From positions 124,001 through 188,000 of the forward strand of contig KV918826.1 of NCBI GenBank assembly GCA_002049455.2: a DNA stretch of 64,000 nucleotides. Direction: 5' to 3'. Shown in pieces: positions 5,751-64,000 of the stretch. Below the pieces are notes generated by a model that saw only the letters and a program-made list of their open reading frames with translations, was not told the DNA's origin and did no database searches. The number at the start of each line of letters is the position of its first letter. Position 1 is the first letter of the stretch. The position numbers and the translations under genes were made by a program. The stretch is from Porphyra umbilicalis (Eukaryota > Rhodophyta > Bangiophyceae > Bangiales > Bangiaceae).

Positions 5751-5901
5751 GATGGGTCGCCAGGAGCGCAAGGTAGGTTTGTCTTCGCTTCGTAAACGCC
5801 TTCTTTTTCTATCCATCATACTTGCTGCCATGGACGTACGCCTCGTGGACGTGGGTGATGTTCTTCCAGGTGAAAAGCAGCTGGGCAAGGTGTGAGTCCA
5901 C

Positions 5902-10192: not shown

Positions 10193-12733
10193 ATGCCGCC
10201 CGCGTTTACCCCCCCCCCCCCCTCTCTCGCGCCGCCGCCCCCGCCACCGCCCTCGGCCGCCGGCTGCGGCGGCGCCTCGGGCGGCGCCCCCCCCCCCTCG
10301 CGCTCGCGCGGCGGCGCCCCCCCCCCCCCCCACCCTCCCCCCCCCCCGCTGCCCCCCCCGGCATCCCCCCCCCGGCGCCATCCCCCCCTCCCCCCCACCC
10401 CCTCCATCGCCATTGTCGGCGGGGGCATGGCCGGCGTTGCGACGGCGGCGGCGCTCCTCGCCGCCGCCCCGACCGCGACCGTCACGGTCTATGACGAGCA
10501 CCTCGGGCCGGGGCTCGGCGGCGCGTCGGCGGCCGCCGCGGGGCTCCTCCACCCGTACGGGCCGCGGGGGCGGCGGGAGGCGTGGCGGGGGGGGAGGCGC
10601 TCGCGGCCGCCCTCGCGCTCGTCGACGCCGTCGAGGCGGCCGCGGCCGCGGCGGCGGGCGGGCAGGGGGGCGGGCCGCCGCCCCCCGCCGCCCCGCCGCC
10701 CCGCATTGCGGTGCGGTCGGGCGTGCGGCGGGTGGCGCGGACGCCGAAAAATGTGGCCGACTATGCCGCCGCGCTCGCGGCCGACGGCGGCGCGGGGGAG
10801 GTGGTGCCGTGGGGGGACCCCCGGGGGGGGGGGAGGGGGGGATTGAGCTCCGCCGGGGGGTGGTGGTGGACGTGCCGGCGCTGCTGAGGGGGGTGTGGGG
10901 GGGGTGCCTGGGGGGGGGGCGCGCCACCTGGGTCCACCGCCGCGTCGAGAGGTACGTGGGGCGGGGGGGGGGGGGGGGTGGGGGGGGGGGGCCTCTGTGG
11001 GCAAACGTGCGCCGGCATGGCGGGGGCGCGGGGGGGGAACGTGGTGGGGTGATGGACCGGGCGGGATGGTCGGCGCGGCGGTGGCGGGCGCCCCGCGCCG
11101 CCGGCAGCGTCGTGGCGGTGGTCTGACAACGTCTGGTCTGGGTGTGTGCGTGCGTCGCTCCGCGGTGCGGCGCGTCGCGGCGCGGTGGCCGCGTCGTGGG
11201 TGGTCGTCTTCCCTGCGTGGTGCGCTCGTCCCTCTCCCCCTCCCCCCCCCCCCTTCCCCCCCCCCGCGACGGTCGCCGCCCCCAGCATCCCCGCCCTGCT
11301 CACCACCCACGACGCGCTCATCATCACGGCGGGCGCGGCCGCCGGCGCCATCCTCGGCTTGGGCGCCCTCCCCCTCAAGCCCGTGCGCGGCCAAAACGTC
11401 TACTATGCGCGGGCGCCGGCGGCGGCCGCCGCCGCGGGCACTGCCCCCGACGGCGCCGCCGCCCCCGACGCGGTGCCGCCCCCCCCCCTGCCGCTGCTGT
11501 GCAAAAAGTATGTGGTGCCGCAGGGGGCGACCGGGCAAGTGCTCGTCGGCGCCACCTTTGAGCACCCGGGGCCGGGGGTGGAGCTGGCGGCGCCGCCAGA
11601 TGTGGCGGCGGCGGCGGCGGCGCTCGCCGACGACGTGGCGCCCCTGTGGGCGGGGGCGGGGGGGGGGGGGGGTGGACCCCAGTGCGCGCGGTGGTACGTT
11701 GGCGTGTGGGGGTGAGGGGGGGGGGGGGCGCCGCCGACGGCGGTGGCGTTCCAACGGTGGGGGAGGGGGGTACGGTGGTCGGCGCCGCCGACCGGGGGTG
11801 GCGCCGGCGGCGCGCGTCGACGGTGCGTCGGTCGCGGGCGGCGTCGGCAGCGTCGTGTGGCGGGCGGGGGGCCGTGGCGGGGTCGAGGCGCGCCTGCGGG
11901 CGGCGCGCCGGCGGTTGCACCGCCCGGCGGGCGCGTGTGGGGCCGCCGCCGCGTGTGGGTGAGCGGCCGTGCACCGAAACGGCTCCATCCGCTGACGCGC
12001 TCCGCTTGCTGTGTCTGTTGCGTCGGTGGCATGCGTCCCCCGCGCCTGGTGCTCCCCCCCCGCCGCGGGCGCGCCGCCCGTGTCGCGCACCCCGCAGGCG
12101 GGGGTGCGGGGGATGGCCCCCCGTGGCCCGCTGGGTGCGCTGCCGCTCGCCAACATCCTCACCACCCCGACGGGGGAGGTGGCGTATGGCGGGCGCGCGT
12201 GGGCGTTTGTGGGTAGGTTGGCAGAGGCGTGCCTGGGGGGGAAGGGTTGGGGGGGGGGGGGGCGGTGCTTCGCGTCGGCGGCGGCGGGGGGTGGCCGCCC
12301 CGCCGCGTCGACCGCGCCGCGTGTCGCGCGCACGCGCGCGCCGCGGGGCGGGCGGTGACGGGCTTTTCTCACAGGGCCCCCACGGGCGGGCGGTGGGGAG
12401 CCCGCCGGGGCGGCGCAGGCTGCTGACCATGGGGTGTGTGGATGGATGGCCCGGCGCTCGCTTCTTTTTTGTGGTATTGGTCCCCTCTCCCCGCGTGGTC
12501 GTGGTCGCGTCTGGTCGGTGTCCCCGCGTCGACCCCGCGTCGCGTCGCGCCGCGCGTGCCGCCTCTTGCGCGCAGGCCTCGGCTCCCGCGGCATCCTCTA
12601 CGCGCCGCTCCTCGCCGCCGAAGTCGCGGCGGCGGTCACGACCGCCGACGTGACGGCGCTGTGCCCAGAGGTGCGGCGGCTGCCGCTGGTCGCGTCCCCC
12701 AGCGGCGGCGGCACGGGTGGGGAGCGGCGGTAA
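10193..12733 (+). CDS. FAD-dependent oxidoreductase (DAO fold, plant/cyanobacterial type), four exons
   Basis: A flavoprotein of the D-amino-acid-oxidase fold. The dinucleotide-binding motif AIVGGGMAGVATAAALL is followed by an acidic strand end (VTVYDE), then GLLHPYGPRGR, a typical FAD-anchoring segment. Later come PLKPVRGQ, KYVVP, LVGATFEHPG, GVRGMAPRGPLGALPL and GLGSRGILYAPLL. This order matches plant and cyanobacterial FAD-dependent oxidoreductases related to the C-terminal half of MnmC; substrate unknown. Introns fit GT-AG and keep phase: 10,952-11,285, 11,704-12,097 and 12,213-12,575; the last joins WAFV to GLGSRG exactly. The start at 10,193 (CAACCATGCC) is followed by about 70 Pro/Ala-rich residues, perhaps an organelle-targeting leader. 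Exon 1 changes frame at the G runs 10,587-10,594 and 10,823-10,841. The conserved sequence on both sides suggests homopolymer miscounts more than decay. Confidence 0.85.
10952..11285 (+). other. Intron 1 of the FAD oxidoreductase gene
   Basis: The donor is GTACGT, after the codons for VHRRVE. The acceptor CGCCCCCAG is preceded by a long C/T tract. Splicing completes a Ser codon and opens the frame IPALLTTHDALIITAGA, which fits the family. The intron body has 10-15-base G runs. Confidence 0.75.
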
Positions 12734-13120: not shown

Positions 13121-13536
13121 CCTCGGCCGTCGCTGCCGCCACCGCCGCGGGGCGGCGGGTCCGCGTCGGCCCCTCGCCACAGCCGGCGGGCGGCGGTCAC
13201 GCCCGGCGCACCCACACCCTGTGTCCTTGCGCCATGCACGGCACCGCCGGCGCGAGCGCCACCCCCGGCACCCGCGCCACGGCGCCACCGCCGCCGCCAC
13301 CCCCACCGCCACCACCGTGGGCCGTGGGCCGACCGCCGCCGCCGCTGCCGCCGCCGGTAGCCGTGGCACCCCCCCCCCCCGCGGCCAGCGTGGCCGCCCA
13401 TCCCCCCCACGCCGCCAAAGAAAAACGGCCACACAAAGGCACACGACAAAAGAAAGAAACAGCTGGCGGGGGGCATCCGGCGCCCACGGCGCGGGGCACA
13501 TGGCCCCCCCCCCCCCCACCCCCCCCCCCCAGCTCC
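12734..13536. other. Convergent intergenic region
   Basis: This lies between the stop of the FAD oxidoreductase (+) and the stop of the kinase (-). Very GC-rich open frames run both ways, but they are Ala/Arg/Pro soup without a domain. Both 3' untranslated regions should lie here; I see no canonical AATAAA. Confidence 0.5.
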
Positions 13537-15225
13537 CTAGGCCGCGCCCCGAAAAAAGGGGTGCTCGAGCGCCTCGGCCACCCCCGCCCGCCGCCGCGGA
13601 TCCACCGCCGTGCAGCGTTCGAGCAAGTCGGCAAGGTGCGCCGCCTCTGCCCCCCCCACCCCCCCCCCCCCCCGGCATCCGCCTCGGCCGCCGCGGCCGC
13701 GGCAATCGCCGGCGCAATCCCTCCCCCCCGCCCCCCCCCCCCCCCCCCCCCCAACCGCCGCCGCGCACCACCCCCCCCCCGCGGGCTCGCGCGGCGGAGC
13801 CGCGGGGGAATCCCCCCCCCTTTCAGCGCCCCGACGCGGGCGACCAAGTCTGCATTGTCGGCCGACGGCACGAGCAGGCGCCCCGTGTAGAGCTCGTAGA
13901 GCACCGCCGCGACCGCCCACACGTCCGCGGGGGGCCCCCGCGGCAGCCGCAGCGCAATTTCGGGCGCGCGGTAAAAGCGGGAGACGAGGTAGGGGGTGGT
14001 CGGGGAGGCGGCGCCGGCGGCGGCGCCGGCCGGCACGCCGGGCACTGGGGGAGGCGCGGGGGGGGGCGCCCCCGCCGCTTGGGGGCTCCCGCCGCGGCGC
14101 CCGTCGGCGCCGCCGCCACCGCCACCCCCACCGCCACCCCCACCGCCACCGCCGCCGTGCGCGTCGCCCCCGGCGAGGGCGCCCCCCCCCCCCCCCCCCC
14201 CAGGGGCGGCGCCTCCACCCACGCCGACCCGAAATCCGTGAGCGTCACCGTCTGCCGATCCGCCGACAACAACACATTGTCCGGCTTGATGTCCCCGTGG
14301 ACGACGCGCGCGGCGCGGAGCGTGCCGAGCGCCGTAAACAGCTGGCGCCCATACACGCGGGTGGCGGCGAGGGCCAACCCCACCCCCGCCCCGTACGCCT
14401 CGAGGGCGTCGCGGAGGGAGCGGTCGGCGAGGGGAAAGACGAGCGCCAGGTGGCCCCGGTGGGTAAAAACGTCGAGCAGCACCGCGCAGTGGCCGACGTG
14501 GTCGGGGGGGGGGGGGGGGGGGGGACGCCGTCGCACCCGCCGCCGCCCCGGGGGGGGCCACCGCCGCCGCCGCCGCCGCAACGGCACGGAGGGCGGCGAC
14601 CTCCGACGCCCCCGCCCGCCGCATCGCGTCGTTGGCGCGGAGGAGTTTGATGGCGACGGCCCGGGGGGGGGTCACCCCCGCGTCGGTCGCCCGCACGACC
14701 GTCGCAAAGACGCCGCGGCCGGCGACGGAGTGGGGGGTGTAGCGCCCGCCGCCGCCGAGGCGGTCCCCGGGGTGCAGCGTGTAGTGGCCCGACTCGGCGG
14801 TGGTGCCGTCGGCGCCGGGCGGGCGTACGGCCTGTGGGTGGTGCGGCAGGGGGGGGGGGGGGGAAGCGCGCCGGGGATGCCATGGCAGGGAAGGAGAGCG
14901 GTTTAGGCAAGAGCAGACACAAAAAAAAACAAAAAAACGGAAAAAACACGCACAGAACAGGCGCGAACCGACGTCCAGACAGAGCAGCAGCGGCCCCCAC
15001 TATCGAGCGTGAGTCCTCGACGCACACTGGGGCGGCTCGGCCGACGGGCCGGCGCGGCACCACCAGGGCAGTCGGCCACCCACCGCGCGCGCGGCGGCAT
15101 CTCCTCTCCCCCACACCACAGACGCCCCCCCAGCCCCCTATCCATACCCCTGCGCCGCCGCCATGCAACAACGCCGCCGCTTGGGCGACCGACGCGAGCG
15201 GGGCGCCGTCAAACATGTCAAACAT
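13537..15225 (-). CDS. PRP4-type serine/threonine protein kinase (PRPF4B/Prp4 family)
   Basis: The kinase is closest to PRP4, which phosphorylates spliceosomal proteins of the U4/U6.U5 tri-snRNP and acts in the nucleus. Glycine loop: AGRGVFATVVRA; lysine: AVAIKLLR; catalytic loop: VHGDIKPDNVLL (PRP4 members have HADIKPDN); magnesium motif: TDFGSAW; then TPYLVSRFYRAPEI, the PRP4 signature, ADVWAVAAVLYELYTGRLL, and a C-terminal ERCTAVDPRRRAGVAEALEHPFF. A first exon (from Met 15,225, DMFDMFDGAPLASVAQ) joins the kinase in phase through a GT-AG intron at 14,832-15,147; more 5' exons may exist. Frame changes sit at a 21-G run (14,504-14,524), a 20-C run (14,182-14,201) and a 22-C run (13,731-13,752). 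Between DFG and APE lie about 70 extra Gly/Ala/Pro residues, or an unspliced intron. Confidence 0.85.
14832..15147 (-). other. Intron of the PRP4-type kinase gene
   Basis: On the minus strand the donor is GGG|GTATGG and the acceptor is CACCCACAG|GCC. Both joins are phase 0, linking ALLHGGGAG to AVRPPGADGTTAESGHY just ahead of the kinase domain. The intron body is T-rich near 14,920, unlike the flanking exons. Confidence 0.65.
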
Positions 15226-40862: not shown

Positions 40863-41357
40863 TGTGGCGGTTCTAGGCACCACCACGTTGGTTCTCGTCC
40901 TGCCGAAGTGACCTCTTGATCAGCTCGGTCCGTCGAAAGAACTGTCCCGGAAATCGCCCCCAGCCCAGCCTTCCCCCAACGGGAGGGGAGGGTCACGGCA
41001 AAGCCCAGGGGGTAATCGTAGTCCAAATCACAGTTGGTTTTATCAAACGGCGACGGGGACGGCGTCCCCACGGACAATACCCCCCCCCAAACCCAAATGC
41101 CGGCGGCCAAAGTAGCCGCCCCAAATGCGCCGAACAGATAAATCCCTCCAAAGCGAAAAGCTCAAACGAGTAATAGGGGGGCTGGGAAAAGCACAGGGGA
41201 AAAGCCCCGCCCTCGACCGAATCTGATTTCCCCGAGATCTGGACCGGTCATTCCCTTGCTGGCCCGGATCGGGATATTTTGGGACGGCCCCCGGGATTGT
41301 GCTGTCCACAGCTGAGGGGCCACGCCCCGTCCAACTGTGGGACCCCCGATTGGCACA
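40863..41357 (-). repeat. Left LTR (3' LTR) of the Ty3/gypsy element
   Basis: This is a direct copy of 49,102-49,597. It begins TGTGGCGGTTCTAGGC and ends TTGGCACA on the plus strand. Confidence 0.93.
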
Positions 41358-41929
41358 CAGCCCCCTCGTCGCGTGACGTGGCGTCTCTGCCCGTCCCGCG
41401 ACGACCCCTGAGGAGGGGGGTCCGGCCCGACCCCCTGGCCAGATGCCGGCCGCAACCGCCACCCCCCCCCCCCGATCCTCGCCCCAGAGCGGTTGTCGAG
41501 GTCGGTTCGCGGACTGGATCGGCCCCACGCCACACCGGTGTGGCGTGGCGTGCGGCCTGCACCGGTGTCTCGCGGCCCGCACACCCCCCGTGACGCACGT
41601 TGGCCCGACCCCTCCCCGTAGGCCCACACGCACACCCCGGTCTAGCCCCCCACGCGCAACTCCACGACTCCTCCGCGCCACCCTGCGACGTTACCCATCC
41701 GCTATCGCTGCGACGCGGTGTTTGCCGACTCGTTCCTTCTCCCACCCCTCGACGTGCCGTTCACTTCCCCCCCCCCGTGGCGCCCGCCGCTTCTTGCTTC
41801 TGTTGGCCCTCGGGGGTCCCCCCCTCCCCCCCTCCTCCACCACGCTGCTACCTTCGCCTCCCCCTCGTCGGACCGAGGACCCGGCGGCCGCCCGACTACG
41901 AGGTGCCCGCGTCTGCGTCGTCCTCCGCG

Positions 41930-43310
41930 ATGGCCTACGAGGAGATGCGGTACTCCAACGCCGTGGGCCCCCTGCCTGTGTTGTCCAACCCGTCGACGTG
42001 GGCGCCCGCGTGAAAGCGTGAGAAGGCTCGCATGGGAGTGGCGGACACGCTGGCCCACGCGACGTTCCGGGGCATCGACTCGATGCGCCCCGCCAACCCG
42101 TTCGCCAAGCACATTGCGGCCATGCCGCATGCCCCCGTACGTTCCCTCGACGACCGAGCTTCGTAGATCCCCGTGGTGCGGCGTAGTCGCGAGGTGGGGT
42201 ACCGCCGTTCCTACGTCGGCTTCATGAACGACCCCCCGGTGAACCCGCCGTTTGTGCCGACCTTCGGCAACATCCTCACGTGCCCGCCCTTCATCGACGT
42301 GTCGGACCCGGAAGGCCCCACGACGGTTCAGCTGACGACGGCCCGCAACCACCGGGCCGGCTTCACCGGACACCTCGTGGCTTGGCACCAGGCGGAGTAC
42401 TCGAGCTGCGCCACGGCGACCCGCTCGCGCTTGTACCTGCCGACTCCCGCGTGGTCGTCCGGGGTCGAGGTCCCGTACGGTTGCGTGGTAGAACTCCCGT
42501 GGGTACACGCCTGCGCCGCAGACGACCTCTACGCGGGACGGCCCACCCCGTGGGCCATCTTCCGCAGCGAGTGGGCTCTTGCGGCGGCCGTCGTCCTCCT
42601 CGAGACCTTCCGCACCCGTCGGGTCTTGTGGCGCTACCCCCCGCGACTCTTCGATTGGATCCGCTCCGTCGGGCCGTCCAACATCTGCGTCAACGCCGCG
42701 GGTCCCGACGCGGAGGCGACCGCCATCCTCGAGGCGCTGTTGGAACTCGCGGACCAACTCCTTGACACGGAAGTCTTCCGTCAGCACCTCCGCGCCCGTA
42801 CCACCGACCGTCGGGACCGAAAGGGTTGGATCTGGGCGTCCCTCGAGGTGGATGACGACGGGACCCGCGCCAATGTCGCCAAGGATCTTCGCCCCTTCTA
42901 CTTGCCCTACACCGTGGACATCCTCGAGGCGCGTGGGTACGTCCCTGCTTGAGGGGGTTGAGCCGCCGCCGTCTCGGCCGCCCGCAGGCCACGTTACCCC
43001 GGGGCTGGGACCGAGCCGCCCCCTCCGTGGGTAACTCCGGGGGTAGCCTCATCGTCTCGTTCGACCACGTGGAACACCGTGACATCCCCGACGTGGTGTT
43101 TGACCAACTCGAACACATCGCATCGGACCGCGTCCCGCAGGGGTTGGCGCGCGCGGTGGCTTGCGACCCCAGGGAATTCCGCGGCTACACCACAGGGACC
43201 TTGGTAACCGGCTTATGTCACACCGTGGTGTCTCTTGGCGACTCGATCGCCCAGTGCGCCCGCGACCACCCTGGGGTTCTGCCTCGCCACTTGGAGGAGT
43301 TGCTTTAATT
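41930..43310 (+). other. Antisense open frames inside the Ty3/gypsy element
   Basis: Plus-strand frames, opposite to gag-pol, lie between the integrase region and the 3' LTR. The largest is 42,173-42,952 (259 codons) and has balanced amino-acid use (FIDVSDPEGPTTVQL, GFTGHLVAWHQAEYSS, DLRPFYLPYTVDILEARG). The minus-strand shadow of the same stretch is a Gly/Arg-rich artefact. Some plant Ty3/gypsy families carry an antisense gene at this place. The product is unrecognised, and the region shares the element's broken state. Confidence 0.5.
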
Positions 43311-44063
43311 TGTGGGTCGGTGTAGCACCTGCGCTGTTCTCCTTCGCGAGGTCGGCATGGCCGCCGGTGAGGCCAACCACCGCCAGAAGCATCCCCGCGA
43401 CCGCGACGTCTACCACGAGGAGCCGCCGGCGTAGCGCCCCCGCAGTCTGCCCGAACCCGGCTGGGGTGAGCCATCATCGGGCCGCCGTTGACCGAGGGGG
43501 TGGCAAATGACAGGATGGGGGGGCATCACTCTCGAGAGTCGTAGCTGTCGCGCGTAGTAGTGTAGTGGGTCTCGTAGTATCGACGGTGCCGTACGGCGCG
43601 TCAGCGAACAATAAACGCCACGCGAGTCGCTTGCGTGTCACCCTTGGGAAAGCCTCTTGCTTGTCAGGCCGAATCCTGATCTCCCCTAGTGGCCCAAGGT
43701 TCGACAGGTCCACGCCGGTCAGCCGTCGCGTACCACCGCCTACCCTCCGAGACCGTCCATGCGATCCGATCGCCCTGGCTCGCCCCCGGGTCGCGGGGAA
43801 GGCCGCCGTCCTGCCACGCGGTAGAGACGGTCGCCACCACGGCCGCGTGGCTCCGACCAGGACACGTGTTGTAACCGAAGATCGGCCACGATTCGCAACT
43901 TGAAAACCACGTGTCCCGCATGGGAATTGTCTTCGGCGGGGAAGTCGACGACCGACCCGGCCTCTTCGACTCGTAGGACCACCCGTCGCATGTACTGCTG
44001 CACCTTAAGCAGGTCCTACCGACTGGCAAACTGAAGGGTGTCCTCCTTGTGGTGGTACCCTCA

Positions 44064-45206
44064 CTAGCGGGGCCACAGGCGTAGCGTACCATCATCAGCG
44101 ACTTCATGTCCCACGAAGGCCTCCCATACGAACTCTTGGCCCGTGCGTTGATGCCCCTTGGGTACCACGATGTCTCGGGGTACCCGGAAGTTTTGCAGGA
44201 GCGTCTGTGGATCCCCCGGCGGGCCCGGTGCTGCCGTCACGTGGTCGCTACTCACCGTCTCCGGGTACCCAGCGATGTCCAACGAGAACGTGCCTTCTCC
44301 GCGGGACAGCACCTCGAACAGTCCGGCCGCGCGGGTCCCCAGCTTGAAGTTGGTCCGCGTGTGGCCATCGACGATCGCCCAGTCCTCCGCGTGGATGTTC
44401 CTGTTGACCGGCCGCACGCGGGCATCGTAGTGTCCCTTGTACCGCCGCTGTGCCAGCGTAAGGGACCGCCGTACCTTGTGGATCATGTTACGCAACCGCG
44501 TCCGGATGACCTCGCGGATAGCTCGTGGACTTCCGTCCGTCTCTTCTGGTGTCGAAGAGCCTACCATTCGTTCCACGGGGAGGCTCCGTACCCGCTCGGG
44601 TGTGACGAACTCGAGAGGAGCCACCCCGGTGCTCTGCTGCGGCCGACTGTTGTAGGCCAACGTCAGCATCGACACCAGCTCGTCCAATTGGTCTCGGTGG
44701 TCCTCGACGTATGTCGGAAGCTGCCTCACGATGGTCCGGTTGTACCGCTCCACTTGGTCGTTCGTCTGCGGGTGATACGTCGTGGAGTACCGGTTAGAAA
44801 CCTCGAGGAGCGAGCAGACCCCTTGGAAGAAAGTGGAACGGAACTGCGGGCCATTGTCGGATAACACCGTCGCCGGGGGTCCGTATGCCGCTACCCAGTT
44901 GTCCAAAAAGACTGCCGCAATGTTCTCCGCGTCGATCCGCTGAAGCGGGATGGATTGCGTCATCTTGGAGAAGCGATCCACGATGACCAACAGGTGTTCG
45001 TTCCCCGCCGCCGTCCGGGGGAGGAACCCTAGCAGGTCCATACACATATCCGTCAGCGGTTCCGTCGGGGGGAAGGTCTTGAGGTTGTTTTTCTTGCGTC
45101 TCTGGCCGACGCGGCTCCTTGCGCACTGAGTGCAGTTGGCCACGAAGGCGTAAACGTCCACCACCATAGACTCCCAATAAAACCACAGTCGCATCGACGT
45201 GTACAT
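44064..45206 (-). mobile_element. Integrase part of the Ty3/gypsy fossil
   Basis: Recognised by a zinc-binding end (CTQCARSRVGQRR), the DDE-type core (VIVDRFSKM, TVLSDNGPQF, NDQVERYNR) and a C-terminal region, in the order typical of Ty3/gypsy integrases. Confidence 0.93.
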
Positions 45207-45429
45207 CTTGTTCGCCTCGGGTTCCCGGCTTGCGGCGGGTAGTGTTCCCGCATCGTCACCACGTAGCGCATGTGGGTCGGCACGTAGACTTGCGCGGCCA
45301 GTCCAACGGCGCCGCGCGCACCAACAGGCCGTTCGGGTCCTTGTGGAACCAATACTTGTCGTTGCCGTCCATCGCCGCGCGGACCTCCTTGCACCGTCCG
45401 TCCTCCGCTTGCCCCCCGAGGAGCTCGGC

Positions 45430-47060
45430 GAGCGTCAGGGGGGATAGGAGCCCCCCCCTTGATCTCCGACGGTAATTGCCACGCGGCCGACGAGTTGGAC
45501 AAAGCCAAACAACGTGCCGCGTCGTGTATCGCCCCCTAGTCTCTCGTGGGTGTTGCGATGCGTGACATCGTGCCCGCCGCGTGCTGTGACTCCTCCTGCC
45601 GCGTCTGCACCACATAGTCCAACTCCGCCAACCGCAACCGCCACCGCGTCAGCCTCCCGTGCGCACCGTCCATGTGTAACATCCATTTGAGCGCCGCGTG
45701 GTCCGTGCGTACCGTGAAGCTAGTCCCATCGACGTAGGGACGAAGGAGGAGGGATGCCCACACCACCGCGAGGCACTCGCGCTCCGTCGTACTCTAGTTC
45801 CGCTCCGTCGCGTTGGGAGAGCGGCTCCAATAGCTCACGGGCCGCGTGGATTGGTCGGGTTGTTCCTGCAGTAGGACCGCGCCAACTTGTTCCGCGCTTG
45901 CGTCCGTGTCCAACGTGTTTGTCCCTTGGCGCCGCAAGAGGGCGATGATGGGGGCCTCCGTGAGCCGCCTCTTGAGCTCCTCGAATGCCCCCAAGGCCTC
46001 GTCAGACAACGTCCCTCACCGATCGGGCCTCTTAGAACTCGTCATCGCGGCCAACGGCCGCACCACTTGGACGTAGTCCTTGAAAAACCTCCGATAGACG
46101 TTACACATCCCGAGGAAGCTACGTAGGTCCTTCTTGCACCGCGGGGGAGCCGCCTCCCTGAGTCTGCAGATGTTCTTGTCTTGTACCTTCAGCCCCCCTC
46201 GGCCCACGATATGGCCCAAATATTCTCTTCCTGTTGGAACAAGTGGCACTCCCTTGCCTTGAGGGAGACACCCGCGCCACGCAGCGCCGTGAAGACCTCC
46301 CGGAAGTGTTCCACGTGTTTCCCCGCCGACTGCGAGAAGATGATGATGTCCTCGAGGTACGCGAGGCAGCTCTTCCACTTAAATCCACCGAGAATCATGT
46401 AGATAGCCCGTTGGAAGGTCGCCGGGGCATTAGAAAGACCGAAAGGAAGGCGAATGTAACGATAGACCCCCTCATGACAAACGAAGGTCGTCTTGTCCCG
46501 GTCCTCGTCCGCCACGGAGATCTGCCAGTACCCCGAGTTGCAGTCGAGCGTCGAAAACACCTTGGCGTCCCGAGGAAGTCAATGCAATAGTCTATACGTG
46601 GCAACGGGTACACGTCCCGCACCGTTACCACGTTAAGTTGGCGGTAATCCACGCAGAACCGCATCGTCCCGTCGGGTTTCGGGACCAGGATCACAGGGAA
46701 GGCCCACTCGGCACTCGAGGGCTCGATGACCCCGAAGTCCCGTTTTTCGTTGCACCTCCTTGGAGATGATGTCCTTGAAGTATGGCTCGCCCGATAGGGT
46801 TGGGCCTGCCGTGGCCGTGCCCCGGAGGTCACCTCGATCCGATGCGGGGTGACATCGACCTTGCCGAGTTCCTTCCGCCCACAGCGCTTTGTACTCCTCG
46901 AGGAGGTCGTCCACGGCCCCGCGGAGCGTACAGGGAACACCGTCCCAGTGGACCTCCGGCTTGGGATACGTCTTGTCCAACGGGTGATTCGGGGGTTTTC
47001 CCTCGTAGATCCCCTCCCCGGCTTGCCTGCTCGTCTTGACCTCCTCGTCGGGCTTGTCAC
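45430..47060 (-). mobile_element. Reverse transcriptase and RNase H part of the Ty3/gypsy fossil
   Basis: Recognised by [20 protein letters not shown], the palm segments [19 protein letters not shown] and LAYLEDIIIFS, and RNase H segments (TLDTDASAEQVGAVL; TDHAALKWML). The reading is spread over several frames. Confidence 0.93.
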
Positions 47061-49069
47061 GGGGGTCCACCCCCATCGTTAGGACCGCCCTCGGTTCCTC
47101 CTCCTCCTCGCCGACGTGCAGCGGTCCATTGTTGGCCGTCGCGGTTCCGATGACGTACCCCTTCGTTAGGTGCACCGGCACGTCCCCGATGTTCGTGAGG
47201 TAGAGGGACCCCGGGGTGTTTGGGGAGAACTCCGCGACGGCGTTGTGCAACAGTACCTTCTGTCGGCTCATTTTGACGGGGCGTTCCCGTACCAGGTGGA
47301 CCCCCTTGACTTCGCAGCACACTTGGAAAGCCTGGATGCACCGTGGGCCCACGGTTACCTCTTGCCGAAGCCGGATAGCCCAGTGCCGACCACCTCCCTC
47401 GTGCGGATAGGGATCCGGGTCGGCGCCCGCCCCCGCGTTTATCTGTCGAAGGAAGGTGCTCCGCGCGGCTTTCACGAGGTCCCGCTCCTTGTCCGTCAGA
47501 TTTTTGCAATCAGGGACTCGGTGTCCGTGCGTCCAACACATGTAGCACAACAGGTGACCCGTCGGGGCCTCCCGCCGAGGGTACGGCGCTGCTCCGGCCG
47601 TACGGAACCCCGGGGTACCCGATGGCAGCACCGCGACCGTGTCGTGCGTCGGGTGTTGTCCTCCTCGCACGGGGAGTTGAGGTAGTTGACCGAGAGGCCT
47701 CGGGGCCCCGTCGACGTCTGTCCCTTCCGCGATGATCCCCCGGGGGACCCCCGTTTAGCCAACGCCATGACATCCTTGGCGGCCCGGTTCTTCCCGCCAC
47801 GTAGGCTGACAACTGCTGGTAGCTTCGATGTGGCGTGTGGTACACGAATGCATCCGCCCGTAGGTACTCTGGTACGCCTTGAATCAGCTGCTGTCTCATC
47901 GTCCCCTCGGTGTGGATGTTGCCGCAAAGCTCGGCGAGGCTCCGTAGGCATACCGCAAAGGCGTCCACCCCCTCGTTGTCCAAGAGCGCTGCCCGACTAA
48001 ACTTGTCCTGCGCCAGCCCCAAAGCGTGCGGTTCCGCGTAGGTCGACAACAACCAATTGACCGCCGCGGGGAAGCATCCAAGCGACCCCTGTCCGCCCGC
48101 AATATCCGACCGCGGTAGGTTCCGAGTGAACCGCGCATCAGTGTCGCCCGCGAGGAAGTTGGAAATTAGGTACAAACCCATATTCTCCCACACGTCATTA
48201 TCACCGCAGGCCTTGACGAACCTTCGAAGCCACGAGAAGACCTCGACGGGTTCCTTCCCGTAGAACATCGAGGTACCCCGGAAAGAGAACTTCATGTTAT
48301 TGGCCGTCCGTCCCATCTTGCGGGCCTGCGACGCCCCGTAGGTCGAGTGACGGTTCCGTAGGCGGTACGATCAGTAGTCCAGGACGCCTGCGAAGCGATA
48401 GTCCGGGCACTCGAGGACCGCCAACCTGCCGAGCCCCACCTTGCACCCCACGCGGTCATCCTCGTTGTCGGTTGTCGCCGGTGACGGCGAGGAAGATGTA
48501 GACGACGATGACGACGAAAGACTACGGTGACGCCGTGACTTCCCTTTGCTGCGGCTCTTCCGCGTCTCCACGGGTGAATCTCGGCGGAGGGCATCTTGAG
48601 CAGAGCCCGCGGGGCTTGCCGCGATGACCTGAGAAACGTCGGCCAATAACGACTCGCGGAACGTCGACAGCGCCGTGTCCAGTTCTGCCATCACCAGAGG
48701 CGACGCCGAACCTTTATCTTGACCCACCAGTCCCGTCCGTTCGTCGTGACGTCGAGAAAGAAAGGCATCGGCCCCCGGCGGGACCCGCCGTACCGTTTCG
48801 CCCACGAGGTCCGCCAATGGCCGGAGCGGAGTGACGGGATTCCCTGATCCAGCCGCGTATCTTCCTGTTGCAGCGACCGCTGGGGTCACCGCGGATGTAC
48901 CCGCCGGCATGCCGCTAGCGATCGCGTCCAACTTGGGGAGGTCGGGCGGCGACGCCATCGTATCGGCAGGGCGGTAGTCGACGACAGACCGACGCGGAGA
49001 TCCACGTCGCCTTGAATTCACAAACCAACAGACTATCGGGGAACCGGCTACCCGGTACGGGCGTGGCAA
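47060..49069 (-). mobile_element. gag and protease part of the Ty3/gypsy fossil
   Basis: A capsid-like domain (FYGKEPVEVFSWLRRFVKAC; YAEPHALGLAQDKF) is followed by a zinc knuckle (CYMCWTHGHRVPDC). The upstream part (48,371-49,069) is Ser/Arg-rich. This order is typical of Ty3/gypsy gag. Confidence 0.8.
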
Positions 49070-49101
49070 CCGCCGGAATTCCTTGCTGCTCCACCAGAAA
49101 T

Positions 49102-49597
49102 TGTAGCGGTTCTAGGCACCACCACGTTGGTTCGTCGTCATGCCGAAGTGACCTCTTGATCAGCTCGGTCCGTCAAAGGAACTGCCCCGGAAATCGACCC
49201 ACAGCCGAGCCTTCCCCCAACGGGAGGGGAGGGTCACGGCAAAGCCCAGGGGGTAATCGTAGTCCAAAGCACAGTTGGTTTGATCAAACGGCGACGGGGA
49301 CGGCGTCCCCACGGTCAATAACTCCTCCCAAACCCGAACGCCGGCGGCCAAAGTAGCCACCCCAAATGCGCCGAACAGATAAATCCCTCCAAAACGAAAA
49401 GCTCAAACGAGTAATAGGGGGGCTGGGAAAAGCACAGGGGAAAAGCCTCGCCCTCGACCGAATATGATTTTCCCGAGATCTGGACCGGTCATTCCCTTGC
49501 TGGCCCGGATCGGGATATTTTGGGACGGCCCCGGGGGTGTGCTGTCCACAGCTAAGCGGCCGCGCCCCTTTCAACTGTGGGACCCCCGACCGCCACA
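49102..49597 (-). repeat. Right LTR (5' LTR) of the Ty3/gypsy element
   Basis: Partner of 40,863-41,357. On the minus strand its inner edge is followed within a few bases by TGGTGGAGCAGC, a TGG-starting stretch in the place of a tRNA primer site; the tRNA is not identified. Confidence 0.93.
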
Positions 49598-49602
49598 CTG
49601 GC
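49598..49602. repeat. Target-site duplication, right (CTGGC)
   Basis: Exact copy of 40,858-40,862, directly after the terminal CA of the right LTR. Confidence 0.85.
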
Positions 49603-49881
49603 CACTCGCGCATCCTCAGCCGCGCGCTTACCATTCGCTGGTGGGTCCCCCATGAGTACGGGAGCGTATACATTGGCCGAAAGACCGCGGCTGTGGCGCC
49701 GGCGCCTGGCGCGTCAAGCACAGCGTGTCCGCGCGAATTTGGCCTCGGTGCACGGCGCACGGCGGTGCTATAGTAGGATAGGGGGCTTCGCGTAATCTAA
49801 ATGGGTCCTGGTATTGTCCCTGACGCGTGTTTGGATCATCTTTCTCGTTCTGGAGCATAGTGTCGTGGGATGTCGTCAGAA

Positions 49882-56310: not shown

Positions 56311-56477
56311 CCCCCACGATCTCTTGTAGCCCCACCCACGATCTCTTGTAGCCCACGTGTCATCGTGGGTCGTTTTTTTCGCGATACGACCCCGGTCCTT
56401 CGTTCGGAGGGGGGTCTGGGTCCTGGCGGCTTCGTGAACAGTTCGGCGGCAGCCTTGCGTCGCGGGAGGGTAGGAAG

Positions 56478-56577
56478 ACACTCGATTTCTCGCACCTCTT
56501 TTCGACAGTGTGAAGGCGGGGGAGGTGCGAGTATCTCATCTGGCTCAAATCGGCCTTTTTTCTCACCCTCTAATGGG
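56478..56577 (+). repeat. Left terminal inverted repeat of the 7.4-kb element
   Basis: Contains CTCGCACCTCTTTTCGACAG, AAGGCGGGGGAGGTGCGAG and, at the inner edge, CTCACCCTCTAATGGG. The first and second parts can fold into a hairpin. Confidence 0.8.
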
Positions 56578-57733
56578 ACGCCGAGTTAATACACTGTGGA
56601 GCGGCTCTTAGTGCAAATCTGGCCAGCCGTTGGTATAGAAGCACAATTTTCGCCATCTATTGGCTCTCTTTTGTGCTGTCAGTTTGATGTTGAATATGAA
56701 GGGATTTCGAGCCAGATCTGGCGGCGAAAACAACGTGGCCGCCCGTTTGCGCGCTTTTTCCAGGACACGGCCAGTGTGCACGACGCGATGGCCCCAGCTT
56801 GGTGGGACACAGCTGCAACCGTTCGACTCACAACGCACGAGGCGATTGCTCGGTGCTTGCCGAGGCGCCATGAGCACACTTGAGTTCACGTCGCCCGCGC
56901 CATGGTTTACATTGATTCAACATGGTGTGCACGCCATCGCGGCCACCTCCTATTGCGCACTGCGGCAGACGGCCACCCAAGTGCGTTGCCCGCCTATTGT
57001 CTGAGCGTCCGCCCCGAGCTGCTTCGTTGTCAGGCGAGCTGGCGTACCCTCTCGACGATGATTGAGCACTTCTCGGTTTCTCACACCACATCCTCGCCAT
57101 TGACTCTCTGCATGTTGCCTCCTCCTCCACGCCCCGCCCGCCCCCGGATGCCGTGCCACCTGTATTGATTGGACCTGTTGCCTCCTTGATGCTTGTTCTC
57201 CTGGTCAGCATTGGTTCTATCTCTTTTCTCTGTCCCACCCCAGGCTCTGGCTCGATGTCGTCCTGTGCCGGCTGGACCAGGCGACTCCATCCGTTCCTCT
57301 CTCTTTTCTCTTCCTCGTCGGGGTGCACGCGCGGCGGTTGACAACGGCACGTGGAGTGTGGAGGGTATGTGTGCGTCGGCGGTGGGTGGTGGTTGGCGCC
57401 ACGCCCGCTCCTCTTTGTGTCTTATGCGATGGTAAATGCTGCTTCCTGTGGGAACTGTGTGTGTGTGCAAGTGGGTTGGCGGCACATCTGTGGGGGGGTG
57501 GCGCTCGGCAAGACGCAAGTGAGTGTGAGACGCGGCTCGTGGAGTGTGCGGTGGGTCTTATCGGTCGGATGCGCTCGCGACTCACTTTCCTGCCACTGCC
57601 CCATCGTCTTCCACCAGCTGCTGCACCGCCCGCCCGACATTTCGATTGATATTTTTTTGTTTGACCTGCCATACACGTCAGGCTGGTTGTGTGTCACCAG
57701 TTGTTCGCGCGTGTAGCTCAACCCCTCAGCCCT

Positions 57734-60378
57734 TTACCTTTTCCGTGCTCTCTTGTTTTCTCTCCGCACTTGTGCACGCATGGTGTCAGCTGCCTTCGCA
57801 TGCAAATCATCCGCCCACTTCTCACGGTCCCTCGTAGCCTTGTCTTCTTTGGCTGCACTAACCGGTACTACGTCCCGGTTCTCCCACCTCCGCTTGTCGC
57901 CCGCGCTCGTAGCATTGCGCGCTGCACGCGCCGCCGACTTGCGCGTCGGCCCGTACCGCGCCAGGTCCGACTCACTGGCGTCCCGCGCCAGCGCCATTGC
58001 GCGCATAAAGGCCGCCGCCGACGCCAGCTCAGAGCTAAAGCAATACTTGCGCGTGCTCTGACCGTAGCGCCCGTGCCATGCTTCGATAGCCTGGTCCCCA
58101 TACAAGCCGATGCTCCCATAGCGCTGCATGAATTCGGCGGCGTGGCAAAGCAGCAGGTGAAGCTTCGGTGAAACGCTCAGCCACGGAAACGCCCGCTTCA
58201 GGTGCGTGACAAAAGCCGTGGTGTCTTCTCGGAGCTGGCGGACCTCCTCGGCAGTCGCAACGGCAGCCCGGTTCAATGGCTTTCGGACCCGGTTCCAGAG
58301 CAGCCACGCGTGCTTGTAAGCTGTGTGGTACTTTTCCGTCAGGTCGGGCAACAGCAGCTGGGAGATGGCATCACTCCTGTCACCAATGCGGTGGCAGTCG
58401 CGGCCCATGAACCCCCCCCCGTGCTAGGGAACTGGCTTCACGCCCACGTTGTTCCGTAGCAACGCCGCCAAGCGGTGCGCGAAGCGCAGCCCGGTCTCGT
58501 CTCCGTTGCACTTAATTACGCATTCGGTGGCGAGTACGAGTAATCGTCCGGTCACACAGAGGGTAATGTGCAATGGAATTACAACGATCTGCCGCGGATC
58601 AGCAGGCTGGAGAGGTCGCCGCTCGACGGACAGATGAGCCAATTGGCGTTCAGAGGCAGTGTCGTCGCCGGTACAACGGCCTCCGCTGCCTTGCCCCGGC
58701 CATTCCATGTTGCAGTACTGCGTCGCCAACCGCAGGGTCCTCTCGCCGACGACGTCTTGGAGCGTCAGGTACTGGGCGTCCAATGTGGCGTGCTCGACGC
58801 TGGGTGCTCGAGTGCTCAGGCACTTTAGACACGGCATGGTCGCGCTCGCACCCTTGTGCCCAAGCACGGTACACAGGGCATCAAAGTCGCCCGTGGGGAA
58901 CAATCGCACGGCGCGTCTCTCCCCTCCGACCAGCAGACCGCCCAAGAGCACCTCTGTGACTTGCGGGACCAGCGTTTTGAGCATCGAGTCAATGCCGTCG
59001 TAGTTGTCCTTGTCGCATGGACAAACAGCAGCAAGAATTGTGTTGTTGGGGTCGTTCGGGCGCTCCTGATTAATGAGCCCGACAACAACTTTGACCGACA
59101 GCGGGCTGCCGCCCTTGTCCAAACCTAAAGTAACGTGGACGTCCTTCATCTCAGGCGGGGGGCAACGGGACAGCACGCCCAATTTGCTCGAGTCGGCGTC
59201 TGTAAAGAGGGTAGTCTTGGGCACAGGCCTGCCATTGTCGTCGAAGATGTGCCGCTCAATGAATTGTTCGGCTCCACAGAGAGACGAAACGTGCTCCTGC
59301 ACCGCCAAGGAGAGGTTTGCGATGTAGGCACCAGCAGTGTTGACTGTGACCTTCTTCGCCGGCAGCACCTGCATCCTCTTGCGAGCCCCGCGCAGCTCGG
59401 CAACGCTGGCCATGCCAAGGCGAGCCCCCCGAAAAAACCGCCGGATTAGAGCAAACCCTCGCTGGCTCAGTCCTGCAACCTCCAGTAGCCCCACTTGCTC
59501 CTCCGCCGACGGCGCGCCCCGCGACGGTGCCTCGGCCACGCCCTCCACCTCCTCGTCAGGGGGCGCTCGCGTGAGAGCAGCGCCTGAGCATGTCGCCCGC
59601 AGCTCTTTTCGCGCAGCCGCCAGTCGTTTGTTCGTCTGGCTCTTCTTGACACGCACCAGACGGGGCGTCACCCTCCGCGTGTAGACGGCAATGGTGCCGT
59701 TGCCACACGTTAATTTCAGCACGTTAGGCGTGCCATGGAGCAGGACGGCGCTTGCAATCCTCCCCAAGTACGCCTGGTCCTCTGCCCCGGTGAATTGTCC
59801 AGCCAGTAGCGTCTCCATAAACTGCTTGCAGGTCTGAGCAGCCGGGTGATGGGGCGTGGGGGGGGGGGGCTTGGCATGACACTCGGATGCTCAATGGGGA
59901 TACCGGGGGGGTTGTGGGCAGCTTTTACAAGAGAATCAGGCAGGTGGGCTGGCGGCCGGCGCGCAGGCTCCGGACAGGCATCTTGGTAGGCGATTGCCTG
60001 AGGTGGCGGCAACGTAGGAGGGGGGGCAACAGGCTGCGTTGGCTCCAGCACCTGTGAGGGGGATACGCTCGAGCAAAATTCAGGAGCGGCGTACGATGCT
60101 ACAGGGGGAGGGGGGCGCGTCAAGGCAGCTTGCTGGGCGGATGAGCGCCCCTTGGATCGTTGCCCCTTGCTAGAGCAGGAGTTGCAGGTGCCCCTGTGGC
60201 ACTGGGATTCGGGCAACGCCGCGACGGCTCGCGCCAGGTCGTCGTCCGCCTTGCGCGCCACACCCTCTCTCCAGGCCGCCATGCCTGCTGTTGGCTTCAG
60301 GAAGAGGTGGTGGCACGTCGAGCACTCGTACGCCCACACCCTGCCGGGAAACACCTGCCGCAAGTCGGCTGCCGTCAA
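57734..60378 (-). CDS. Transposase-like protein of unassigned superfamily; one in-frame stop and one frame shift
   Basis: Minus-strand frames form one protein of about 880 codons. N-terminus (60,378-59,870): zinc-binding-like YECSTCHHLF ... SQCHRGTCNSC, then a Pro-rich linker. Core (59,818-58,424): LFTDADSSKLGVL, VKVVVGLINQERPNDPNN, RLFPTGDFDALCTVLGHKG and MPCLKCLS, then IVVIPLHITLCVTGRLLVLA. C-terminal part (58,408-57,734): SVSPKLHLLLCHAAEFMQRY and LYGDQAIEAWHGRYGQSTRKY. Acidic residues in the TDAD, TGDFD and QAIEAWH segments could form an RNase H-type DDE triad, and CxxC/HxxxxH elements resemble zinc sites inserted in such folds. I recall similar GD...GH.G....C..C and KLH..H..E..H proteins in animal repeats, but cannot name the family. 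The core and C-terminal parts share a frame with a single TAG between (58,423). The N-terminal frame meets the core at a 12-G run (59,858-59,869). Confidence 0.6.
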
Positions 60379-60940
60379 TCTGTATCACTCAACAGACGAT
60401 TGTACGGTTGGAAATCACACAATCCAGAGCAAAACACAGTTAGCCTTGCCTCCCGAGGTGGATCCAGGGACGGCCCAGTGGTATGGAGACAGCTTCAGGT
60501 GCATTATCGCATCAGCAGCTCTCTCGCCACCCGCCGCACTGCCAACGTACTTCTTGTCGCCGTTCATCAGGTCCACCTCTGGTTGGTCCTCCTCGGGTTC
60601 ACGGCTCGTTCTCAGCACACCGCGTCGCAGCCAGGCCCCACCGCCCGTTCGCGACGCGTGCAGTGGGTGGTTGACCGGCAAGCGGGTTGCGGCGAGATGA
60701 AAAGCCGAGGGGGTTATAGCGGCAAGACCCCGGTCTTGATCAAGTCGAGGCCGCACCGCTCCCCCCCCCTCTGCATTGCCCTGTTCAGGCAGGATGAAAA
60801 TTGTGTCGCGACACAATTTCCTCTCGGCCACCCAGCTTTCTGCACGTCGCAGATCCATTTTCGTAGGTCATATGTAAAGCGCCGAGGTCTGAGAGCCACC
60901 TTCACTGGGCGTGGTCTGGGCGTAGGCCCAGACAAAGTCC

Positions 60941-60994
60941 GGACCTTGTCTGGGCCGAAGGACCCATATGGGTGCTTCGGCCCAGACAAGGTCC
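60941..60994. repeat. 54-bp near-perfect palindrome
   Basis: The arms GGACCTTGTCTGGGCCGAAG and CTTCGGCCCAGACAAGGTCC flank GACCCATATGGGTG. Only one pair (G/G) fails to match. It sits exactly at the outer edge of the first inverted minisatellite array and resembles a hairpin junction. Confidence 0.9.
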
Positions 60995-61883
60995 ACGCCC
61001 GAGAGCCTGTCTGGCTGTGGAGTTGTCACCCCTTCATTTACTTGCTGCGCGGGTTTGGCCAGTGTCCTTATCGCCAGCGGCCCTATTCCTGCCCCTTCCG
61101 TTGGGATTGCCCATCCCCCAGACCAGCTGCCCGGCACCAGCGCCCCCGCCACCGCCCGCCGCCCCCGCCGCCGGCCGCCGCCCCCGCCGCCGGCCGCCGC
61201 CCCCGCCGCCGGCCGCCGGCCGCCGCCCTCGCCGCCGGCCGCCGCCCCCGGTGCTGGCACCAGCGGCGGCGCCGCCCCCGCTGCCTGCCGCCGCCCCCCT
61301 GGCTGGCAGCGGCGGCAGCGCCCCCGCCGCCAGCCGCCGCGCCCGCTCCTGGCGGCGGCGGCGACGCTCCCGCTGCCTGCCGCCGCCCCCGCTGCCTGCC
61401 GCCGCCCCCGCTGCCTGCCGCCGCCCCCCCTGCTGGCGACGGCGGCGCCACCGCCCCCGCTGCCTGCCGTGGCCCCCCCTGCTGGCGGTGGCTGCGGCGC
61501 CGCCCTCGCCGCCTCCCTGCTGGCGCCGCCCCCGCCCGTGCCGCCTGCCGCCGCCCCACCTGCTGGCGACGGCGGCGGCGCCGCCCCTGCCGGCTGCCGC
61601 CGCCCCCTCCGCCCGCCTCTGCCCCCGCTGCCGGCCACCGCTCCCGCCCTTGGTGGCCTCCCCGGCCGCTTGCCGCCCCGCCTGCCGCTGGTGCCGCCCT
61701 CGCCGGTGGTCGGTGGCGGCGACGACCCCGGCGCGTGTGCGGCCGGCAGGAGGGCGGGCCGTCGGTGGCGGGTGGCGCGGGTGGCGGGTATTGTGGTGGA
61801 CGGTCGGCGGCCGTCGGGTGTGGGTGGGGCGACTGGTGGTCGTGGCTGGCGGTGGGAGTAGCCGGTGGCGCTTGAGGCCGGCG
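60966..61883. repeat. Minisatellite array, left arm of a large inverted repeat
   Basis: A 918-bp block that reappears in reverse at 62,826-63,814. Unique edges (CCCAGACAAGGTCCACGCCC at the outer end, GGTGGGAGTAGCCGGTGGCG at the inner) flank a core of 19-bp units (GGCCGCCGCCCCCGCCGCC; GCTGCCTGCCGCCGCCCCC). Units at 61,173, 61,192 and 61,211 are 19 bp apart. Long frames on both strands are artefacts of the repeat. Confidence 0.9.
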
Positions 61884-62825
61884 CCGGTGGCGCACACCCT
61901 TGGCAGTAGGGGGGTTCCTGCGGCGGCGAAGGGGATCGATCCTGGTGGGGGGATAGGAACAGCGAAGGTCGGTGCTGACTACGGCAGTTGTAGCAGTTCT
62001 GGCAAACAGCTGAGGGGGGCACGGAGGCAGAGGATACTAGAGATGCCTCCACCAAGCAGTTTGAATGGACCCCCTCTGACAAGGTTTCAGATCCAGTGTG
62101 CTCGGCACATCGAGACTGACACTGTCCAGTCCAGTGGATTATGGATTGCCTCTGACACTGCTCAATCCAGTGGGTGGCGACCTTGCGCTTCTCTTGCTTT
62201 CTACAACAGGTTTGCATGTCTTCTTGCAAGAAAATAAGGCACTACATACCTCCTACAGTACCCTTGCCCGTTCTGGTCAAGTTTTGTGGGAGACAGTGTG
62301 GTCGAGTCACCGCCGTGTTTCCCACTTGCATCTTGTCAAACAAGAAGAGAAGCATACGGCACGTCTGGGGCGAACTCGACAAAAACATCACTTTTTCATA
62401 AAGAACCGTTCGTGGTGCATTGAAGGGTCCTGGGAACGGAAAAGTAGGTCGCTAAGTGTACCGACGTCTCCTTCATACTTTTCTTGCTCTTCCAAGTTCA
62501 TACCGACCAGATATGCCGCTACCTCCCTATGGTTCCCTGCCAGTCTGCTGGCCAACTTGGTGTGTCCATTGGCCTTTGTACATCCCATACACTCAATAGA
62601 GGCAACAAAGAAACACAAGGAAGGTCGTAGCATGCTCACAACGCGTGGTCTGCACTCAGCCAACTCACCCACCTCCATATCATACATACGAGTTCCTTGC
62701 GGAGGCGGAGTGCAGCCAAAGCACTATAGGCCCGTGCTAAAAGTCCCGTAAGACCCTGCAAGCAGGTTGCCATGACTCACAAAAAGATATGGGCGGGTGC
62801 GATACCAGCATACTCCACCGACGAC
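61884..62825. other. Spacer between the inverted minisatellite arms
   Basis: About 940 bp of ordinary composition. The plus frame 62,098-62,751 (217 codons) has no recognisable domain, though parts read protein-like (KKHKEGRSMLTTRGLHSANS). It may be element cargo or chance. Confidence 0.4.
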
Positions 62826-63814
62826 GGCCTCCAGCGCCACCGGCTACTCCCACCGCCAGCCACGACCACCAGTCGCCCCACCCACACCCGACGGCCGCCG
62901 ACCGTCCACCACAATACCCGCCACCCGCGCCACCCGCCACCGACGGCCCGCCCTCCTGCCGGCCGCACACGCGCCGGGGTCGTCGCCGCCACCGACCACC
63001 GGCCAGGGCGGCACCAGCGGCGGGCGGGGCGGCAAGCGGCGGGGGAAGCCACCAAGGGCGGGAGCGGTCGCCGGCAGCGGGGGCAGAGGCCGGCGGAGGG
63101 GGCGGCGGCAGCCGGCAGGGGCGGCGCCGCCGCCGTCGCCAGCAGGTGGGGCGGCGGCAGGCGGCACGGGCGGGGGCGGCGCCAGCAGGGAGGCGGCGAG
63201 GGCGGCGCCGCAGCCACCGCCAGCAGGGGGGGCCACGGCAGGCAGCGGGAGCGGCGGCACCGGCGTCGCCAGCAGGGGGGGCGGCGGCAGGCAGAGGGGG
63301 CGGCGGCAGGCAGCGGGGGCGGCGGCAGGCCGCGAAGGCGTCGCCGCCGCCGCCAGGAGCGGGCGCGCCGGCTGGCGGCGGGGGCGGTGCCGCCGCTGCC
63401 AGCCAGGGGGGCGGCGGCAGGCAGCCGGGGCGGCGCCGCCGCTGGTGCCAGCACCGGGGGCGGCGGCCGGCGGCGGGGGCGGCGGCCGGCGGCCGGCGGC
63501 GGGGGCGGCGGCCGGCGGCGGGGGCGGCGGCCGGCGGCGGGGGCGGCGGCCGGCCGCGGGGGCGGCGGCCGGTGGCGGGGGCGGCGGCCGGCGGCGGGGG
63601 CGGCGGCCGGCGGCGGGGGCGGCGGGCGGTGGCGGGGGCGCTGGTGCCGGGCAGCTGTTCTGGGGTATGGGCAATCCCAACGGAAGGGGCAGGAATAGGG
63701 CCGCTGGCGATACGGACACTGGCCAAACCCGCGCAGCAAGTAAATGGAGGGGTGACAACTCCACAGCCAGACAGGCTCTCGGGCGTGGACCTTGTCTGGG
63801 CCGAAGGACCCATT
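62826..63814. repeat. Minisatellite array, right arm of the large inverted repeat
   Basis: Reverse complement of 60,966-61,883, about 70 bp longer through differences in 19-bp unit number (for example the GGGGCGGCGGCCGGCGGC run at 63,470-63,640). Its outer edge abuts the right terminal repeat at CTAATGGGTCC. Confidence 0.9.
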
Positions 63815-63918
63815 AGAGGGTGAGAGAAACGTCGATTGGAGCCAGCTGAGGCACTCGCACCTCCCCCGCCTTCACACTGTCGAAAAGAGGTGCGAGATTT
63901 TTGTCAGGACCGGAGTGT
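63808..63918 (-). repeat. Right terminal inverted repeat of the 7.4-kb element
   Basis: Inverse of 56,478-56,577: GAGGTGCGAG/CTCGCACCTC hairpin arms, CGCCTTCACACTGTCGAAAA core and CCCATTAGAGGGTGAG inner edge. Beyond 63,918 the last 82 bp of the window are GC-rich and unassigned. Confidence 0.8.
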
Positions 63919-64000
63919 CTTTCTATATACGTATAGTCGCGGGGAGGACGGGGGTGCGCCCCGGCGCGTGGCGCGCGCGGGCGTACAAGACGCAGCCGCT

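Follow-up and report, generated by a model that had tools for sequence, protein, structure and literature searches.

The element described here, which spans 56471-63925 (~7.45 kb) of the 64,000-nucleotide stretch of DNA that was analysed (the window), is very probably (at roughly 88%) an autonomous DNA transposon of the cut-and-paste type, now degenerate, that belongs to the CMC/CMCT group (CACTA-Mirage-Chapaev-Transib-RAG1) and whose transposase stands nearest to Chapaev. We place it there because of the zinc ligands of the transposase, their spacing, a match to the Pfam family DUF1280 and a collinear alignment with RAG1. Terminal inverted repeats flank the RAG1-homologous frame, in agreement with an earlier note on this DNA, which had recognised a DNA transposon with a transposase-like protein. 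The same note had proposed an undescribed or poorly described superfamily, but the transposase fits the described CMC/CMCT group by its motifs, its DUF1280 match and its RAG1 alignment; judged by its sequence, the element is a divergent member of that group and not a new superfamily.

The coding part lies on the minus strand and comprises the following features.

57737-59818, minus strand: transposase frame of 694 codons, counted from the ATG at 59818, with one in-frame TAG (Pfam DUF1280; RAG1 alignment)
58424-58426, minus strand: in-frame TAG at codon 465, interrupting the transposase (frame inspection)
59834-59928, minus strand: putative 95-nt phase-0 intron, GTAAAA...CTCAG (frame analysis)
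59929-60384, minus strand: upstream exon or exons encoding a Cys/His-rich N-terminal region, YECSTCHHLF ... CHRGTCNSC (frame analysis)

The frame from 59818 to 57737 contains a single stop, against 19 in each of the other two minus-strand frames, and the two open reading frames P0001 and P0002 are one frame, parted solely by the TAG. Since the alignment to RAG1 runs unbroken across this codon (KPVP*HGGGF against KPIMRMNGNF), we take the TAG at 58426-58424 for a nonsense mutation, or else a sequencing error, rather than for an intron. With a stop in the middle of its transposase, this copy is therefore probably dead, and immobile unless aided by another copy. The protein had been described as split in two places; one of them is this in-frame stop, while the other, upstream, is a frame change at a C/G run for which a plausible intron (59928-59834), enclosing the run, probably accounts. 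The Cys/His-rich region encoded at 59929-60384 had no Pfam match, and it shares its frame with a still earlier segment that lies past two stops, where a further short intron is possible.

The earlier note could fit the protein to no nameable family. The profile search has since supplied one: residues 225-288 match DUF1280 (PF06918) just below its curated cut-off (E=4.8e-5 to 2.2e-4; 21.4-23.5 bits against 25), and homology to RAG1 was found besides. DUF1280 was the one credible family in the Pfam search of the transposase, in which no family reached its curated cut-off and neither the other CMC models nor the RAG1 model (PF12940) were matched. DUF1280 has been equated with Chapaev transposases, which belong to the same clade as RAG1 (PMC3985635). 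The RAG1 core itself has no match to DUF1280, so that the match in our transposase points to Chapaev in particular rather than to the group at large. At the C-terminus Pfam also gave a Mu-like protease (E=0.0035, under the cut-off), which we discounted as probably a product of biased composition.

Compared directly with RAG1 (sequence letters verified against PDB 4wwx), the transposase gave a BLASTP match at E=2e-5 with a collinear segment that is 25% identical, and a Smith-Waterman score of 74 (2000 shuffles: mean 34.5, sd 4.9, maximum 59). The match was weak when the two single sequences were compared by hhalign (E=0.016), and a phmmer search of the PDB sequences with the transposase returned neither RAG1 nor Transib. 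Scans of IMG/VR for close relatives of P0001, for two degenerate protein motifs and for the terminal repeats gave chance matches or none, and the 13 matches to the motif pattern in GTDB genomes were likewise due to chance, all lacking a long frame and a tblastn match.

The residues that carry the assignment, numbered on the transposase (P0003) from the ATG at 59818, are these.

59117-59119, minus strand: D234 in LGLDKGG, probable first catalytic acid (within the DUF1280 match; on a predicted strand of a low-confidence model)
58886-58888, minus strand: D311 of TGDFD, putative second catalytic acid, equivalent to RAG1 D708 (MAFFT)
58820-58831, minus strand: C330-x2-C333, putative zinc ligands, equivalent to RAG1 C727/C730 (MAFFT)
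58568-58570, minus strand: H417 of PLH, the LH motif, equivalent to RAG1 H795 (MAFFT; published Chapaev motif)
58142-58159, minus strand: H554-x4-H559, putative zinc ligands, equivalent to RAG1 H937/H942 (MAFFT; published Chapaev motif)
58082-58084, minus strand: E579, putative third catalytic acid, equivalent to RAG1 E962, 20 residues past H559 (MAFFT)

MAFFT places D311, C330, C333, H417, H554, H559 and E579 on RAG1 D708, C727, C730, H795, H937, H942 and E962, with identical D-to-C and H-to-E spacings in the two proteins, and the pattern D-18-C-2-C ... H-4-H-19-E arose in none of 20,000 shuffles. C(2)C and H(3-4)H motifs between the second D and the final E are typical of the CMCT group (PMC12730594), and here C330/C333 and H554/H559 lie between D311 and E579. 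The motifs C(2)C, LH and H(4)H have been described for Chapaev (PMC4079192), and all three are present in the transposase. Because MAFFT does not align D234 with RAG1 D600, we infer its role from its position; it is probably the first catalytic acid and a better candidate than TDAD. All the motifs quoted in the earlier note (TDAD, TGDFD...GHKG...MPCLKC, KLHLLLCH...EAWH) do occur in the protein, but the choice of TDAD as the first acid had to be abandoned: it precedes the DUF1280 segment without being part of it, with D234 following some 25 residues later, and for that reason is probably not catalytic.

An RNase H-fold nuclease with inserted zinc ligands had also been suggested. The residues and their spacing, aligned to RAG1, are in line with this idea, whereas structure prediction gave no confident fold: two single-sequence AlphaFold runs reached a mean pLDDT of 35 and 46, and fold searches with both models returned noise alone. 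The order of strands and helices predicted in these low-confidence models is consistent with RNase H. Could the element still belong to an undescribed superfamily unrelated to CMC and RAG1? The lack of a Pfam family at the curated cut-off, the PDB sequence search without a match and the absence of relatives in IMG/VR would be in keeping with it, but the RAG1 homology, the seven aligned key residues and the DUF1280 match count strongly against it, and we regard it as highly improbable.

The ends of the element bear on where within the CMC/CMCT group it belongs.

56471-56577, plus strand: left terminal inverted repeat, beginning TAGGAAGACACTC (alignment, core count, folding)
56489-56498 and 56522-56531: hairpin in the left repeat, a 10-bp stem of CTCGCACCTC and GAGGTGCGAG (folding)
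63809-63925, minus strand: right terminal inverted repeat, beginning (as reverse complement) TAGAAAGACACTC, with an 11-bp insertion relative to the left repeat
56471-56472, no strand: possible 2-bp TA target duplication, left, paired with the TA at 63924-63925, perhaps by chance
63924-63925, no strand: possible 2-bp TA target duplication, right, paired with the TA at 56471-56472

The two imperfect repeats, of 107 bp and 117 bp, face each other. Their local alignment (56471-56577 against 63925-63809) scores 148, while the best of 200 shuffled pairs reached 31, and in the window their 28-bp core is found at two places only, against an expectation of 0. In the same alignment the right repeat shares the bases of the left-arm hairpin, CTCGCACCTC/GAGGTGCGAG. 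The inverted terminal repeats of about 100 bp with internal hairpins, as originally proposed, are thus borne out by this score and by the hairpin stem. The outer edge common to both repeats is TAG[G/A]AAGACACTC; the repeats reach outward past CACTC, the apparent ends of the element being TAGRAAGACACTC, and in this one copy CAC and GTG sit a few bases inside these ends. No direct repeat adjoins CACTC (56479) and GAGTG (63917), so there is no 3-4-bp duplication at the CAC/GTG positions, and none of 5 bp abutting the element ends was found in the flanks. A cut just outside GRAAGACACTC would leave a TA on either side, although a 2-bp match in a single copy is weak and could easily arise by chance. 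An 8-bp direct repeat, GTCGCGGG (56459-56466 and 63936-63943), was rejected as a target duplication because its copies stand 4 and 10 bases off the shared ends.

Members of the CMC/CMCT group have 5'-CA..TG-3' ends in most cases and target duplications of 2-5 bp, and Chapaev elements end in CAC/GTG flanked by a 3-4-bp duplication (PMC4079192). The element does not show the latter arrangement, and we therefore refrain from calling it simply a Chapaev. We could speculate that within CMCT it belongs not to Chapaev proper but to a different or unnamed lineage that duplicates TA at its target (ESTA-like, Mirage-like or new), a tentative reading to which we give clearly less than even odds and which would refine the CMC/CMCT explanation without excluding it. 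ESTA, an EnSpm-like element of rust fungi, combines TA duplications with a RAG1-like CMCT transposase (PMC12730594), and the repeats that extend past CACTC to TAGRAAGACACTC, the TA at both outer edges and the missing Chapaev-type duplication all argue in this direction; however, a TA pair in one copy may well be fortuitous, DUF1280, the Chapaev family, is the sole Pfam model that recognised the transposase, and H(4)H and LH are in keeping with Chapaev.

Compared with known systems, our element, a CMC/CMCT transposon nearest to Chapaev, resembles Chapaev in the DUF1280-like segment around the probable first acid, in the C(2)C, LH and H(4)H motifs and in its terminal inverted repeats. It differs in a DUF1280 score just below cut-off, in its apparent ends, which lie a few bases further out than CAC/GTG and lack the 3-4-bp duplication, in its size of 7.45 kb with an internal palindrome, and in its GC-rich genome, the Chapaev families of the cited literature being from animals. 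With RAG1, RAG-like and Transib proteins it shares the D-19-C-x2-C and H-x4-H-20-E spacing, an LH equivalent to H795 and the collinear 25%-identical segment; in contrast, it has no match to the RAG1 model (PF12940), no recognised RAG2-like gene and no 5-bp duplication abutting its ends. ESTA, compared by description only, is similar in its RAG1-like CMCT transposase and in the possible TA at both ends, but no TET/JBP gene was recognised in our element.

The terminal repeats, the homology and the residues with their spacing, all directly observed, suggest how such an element would move. By analogy with the RAG1/Transib family, the transposase would bind the hairpin-bearing inverted repeats and bring both ends together, and cleavage would be performed by an RNase H-type active site composed of D234, D311 and E579. 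A putative zinc ion, coordinated by C330/C333 and H554/H559, would pin the inserted domain. After its predicted excision, the element would be joined to a new site, and this integration would be expected to produce a short target duplication.

The right half of the element is occupied by a GC-rich palindrome of 2.8 kb, which the earlier note had not mentioned.

60968-61890, plus strand: left arm, about 82% G+C (sequence comparison)
61891-62814, no strand: spacer of 924 bp, 53% G+C, with no recognised gene (Pfam; composition)
62815-63813, minus strand: right arm, abutting the right terminal repeat (sequence comparison)

The arms are 97% identical outside gaps and have 82-83% G+C, compared with 63% in the coding part. 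It is tempting to speculate that a separate fold-back element, the palindrome of 60.9-63.8 kb, inserted into a CMC transposon made up of 56.47-60.9 kb and the right terminal repeat. This nested structure, which concerns the right half alone and is compatible with a CMC/Chapaev-like element, is not far short of an even chance in our estimation. The near-identity of the 0.92-1.0-kb arms, their composition and the small nested palindromes at the inner border (60906-60995) favour it, but the right arm continues straight into the right terminal repeat, with ATGGG common to both, no border duplication was seen, and the palindrome could just as well have arisen by inverted duplication inside the element. 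The palindromes at 60906-60995 are overlapping and near-perfect, with arms of up to 27 bp, and the 27-bp unit of this cluster recurs at 63787-63813. A perfect 22-bp palindrome, AAATTGTGTCGCGACACAATTT, lies at 60798-60819 in the upstream part of the transposase region.

Most known members of the CMC/Chapaev-Transib-RAG1 group, from which the vertebrate V(D)J (antibody-gene) recombinase arose, come from animals, plants and fungi. If a further GC-rich eukaryote carries a divergent Chapaev-like member, this would give one more branch with which to relate Chapaev, CACTA and Transib/RAG1 and to understand how target choice changed across the group, although a single broken copy settles nothing by itself about these relationships. 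A bolder proposal, which we consider unlikely, is that the element represents a separate CMCT lineage of a GC-rich non-animal eukaryote that combines a Chapaev-type transposase, TA-targeting ends outside CACTC and a kilobase-scale palindrome, and so links Chapaev, ESTA and Transib/RAG1.

The window has 66.6% G+C and looks eukaryotic. It also contains a PIF/Harbinger-type transposase at 5896-7128 (plus strand), a 411-codon open frame with a DDE_Tnp_4 domain (E=1.3e-18). The earlier note had rightly set the two transposases apart, as DDE_Tnp_4 is absent from the frame at 57737-59818. A Gypsy-type LTR retroelement occupies 40863-49608 (minus strand), with direct repeats of about 508 bp that are 93% identical (40863-41368 and 49102-49608) and an integrase core with an H2C2 zinc domain at 44067-45434. 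Two probable host genes encode an FAD-dependent oxidoreductase (9878-10843, plus strand; DAO, E=4.6e-10) and a protein kinase split over frames (13200-14999, minus strand; Pkinase, E=4.7e-11).
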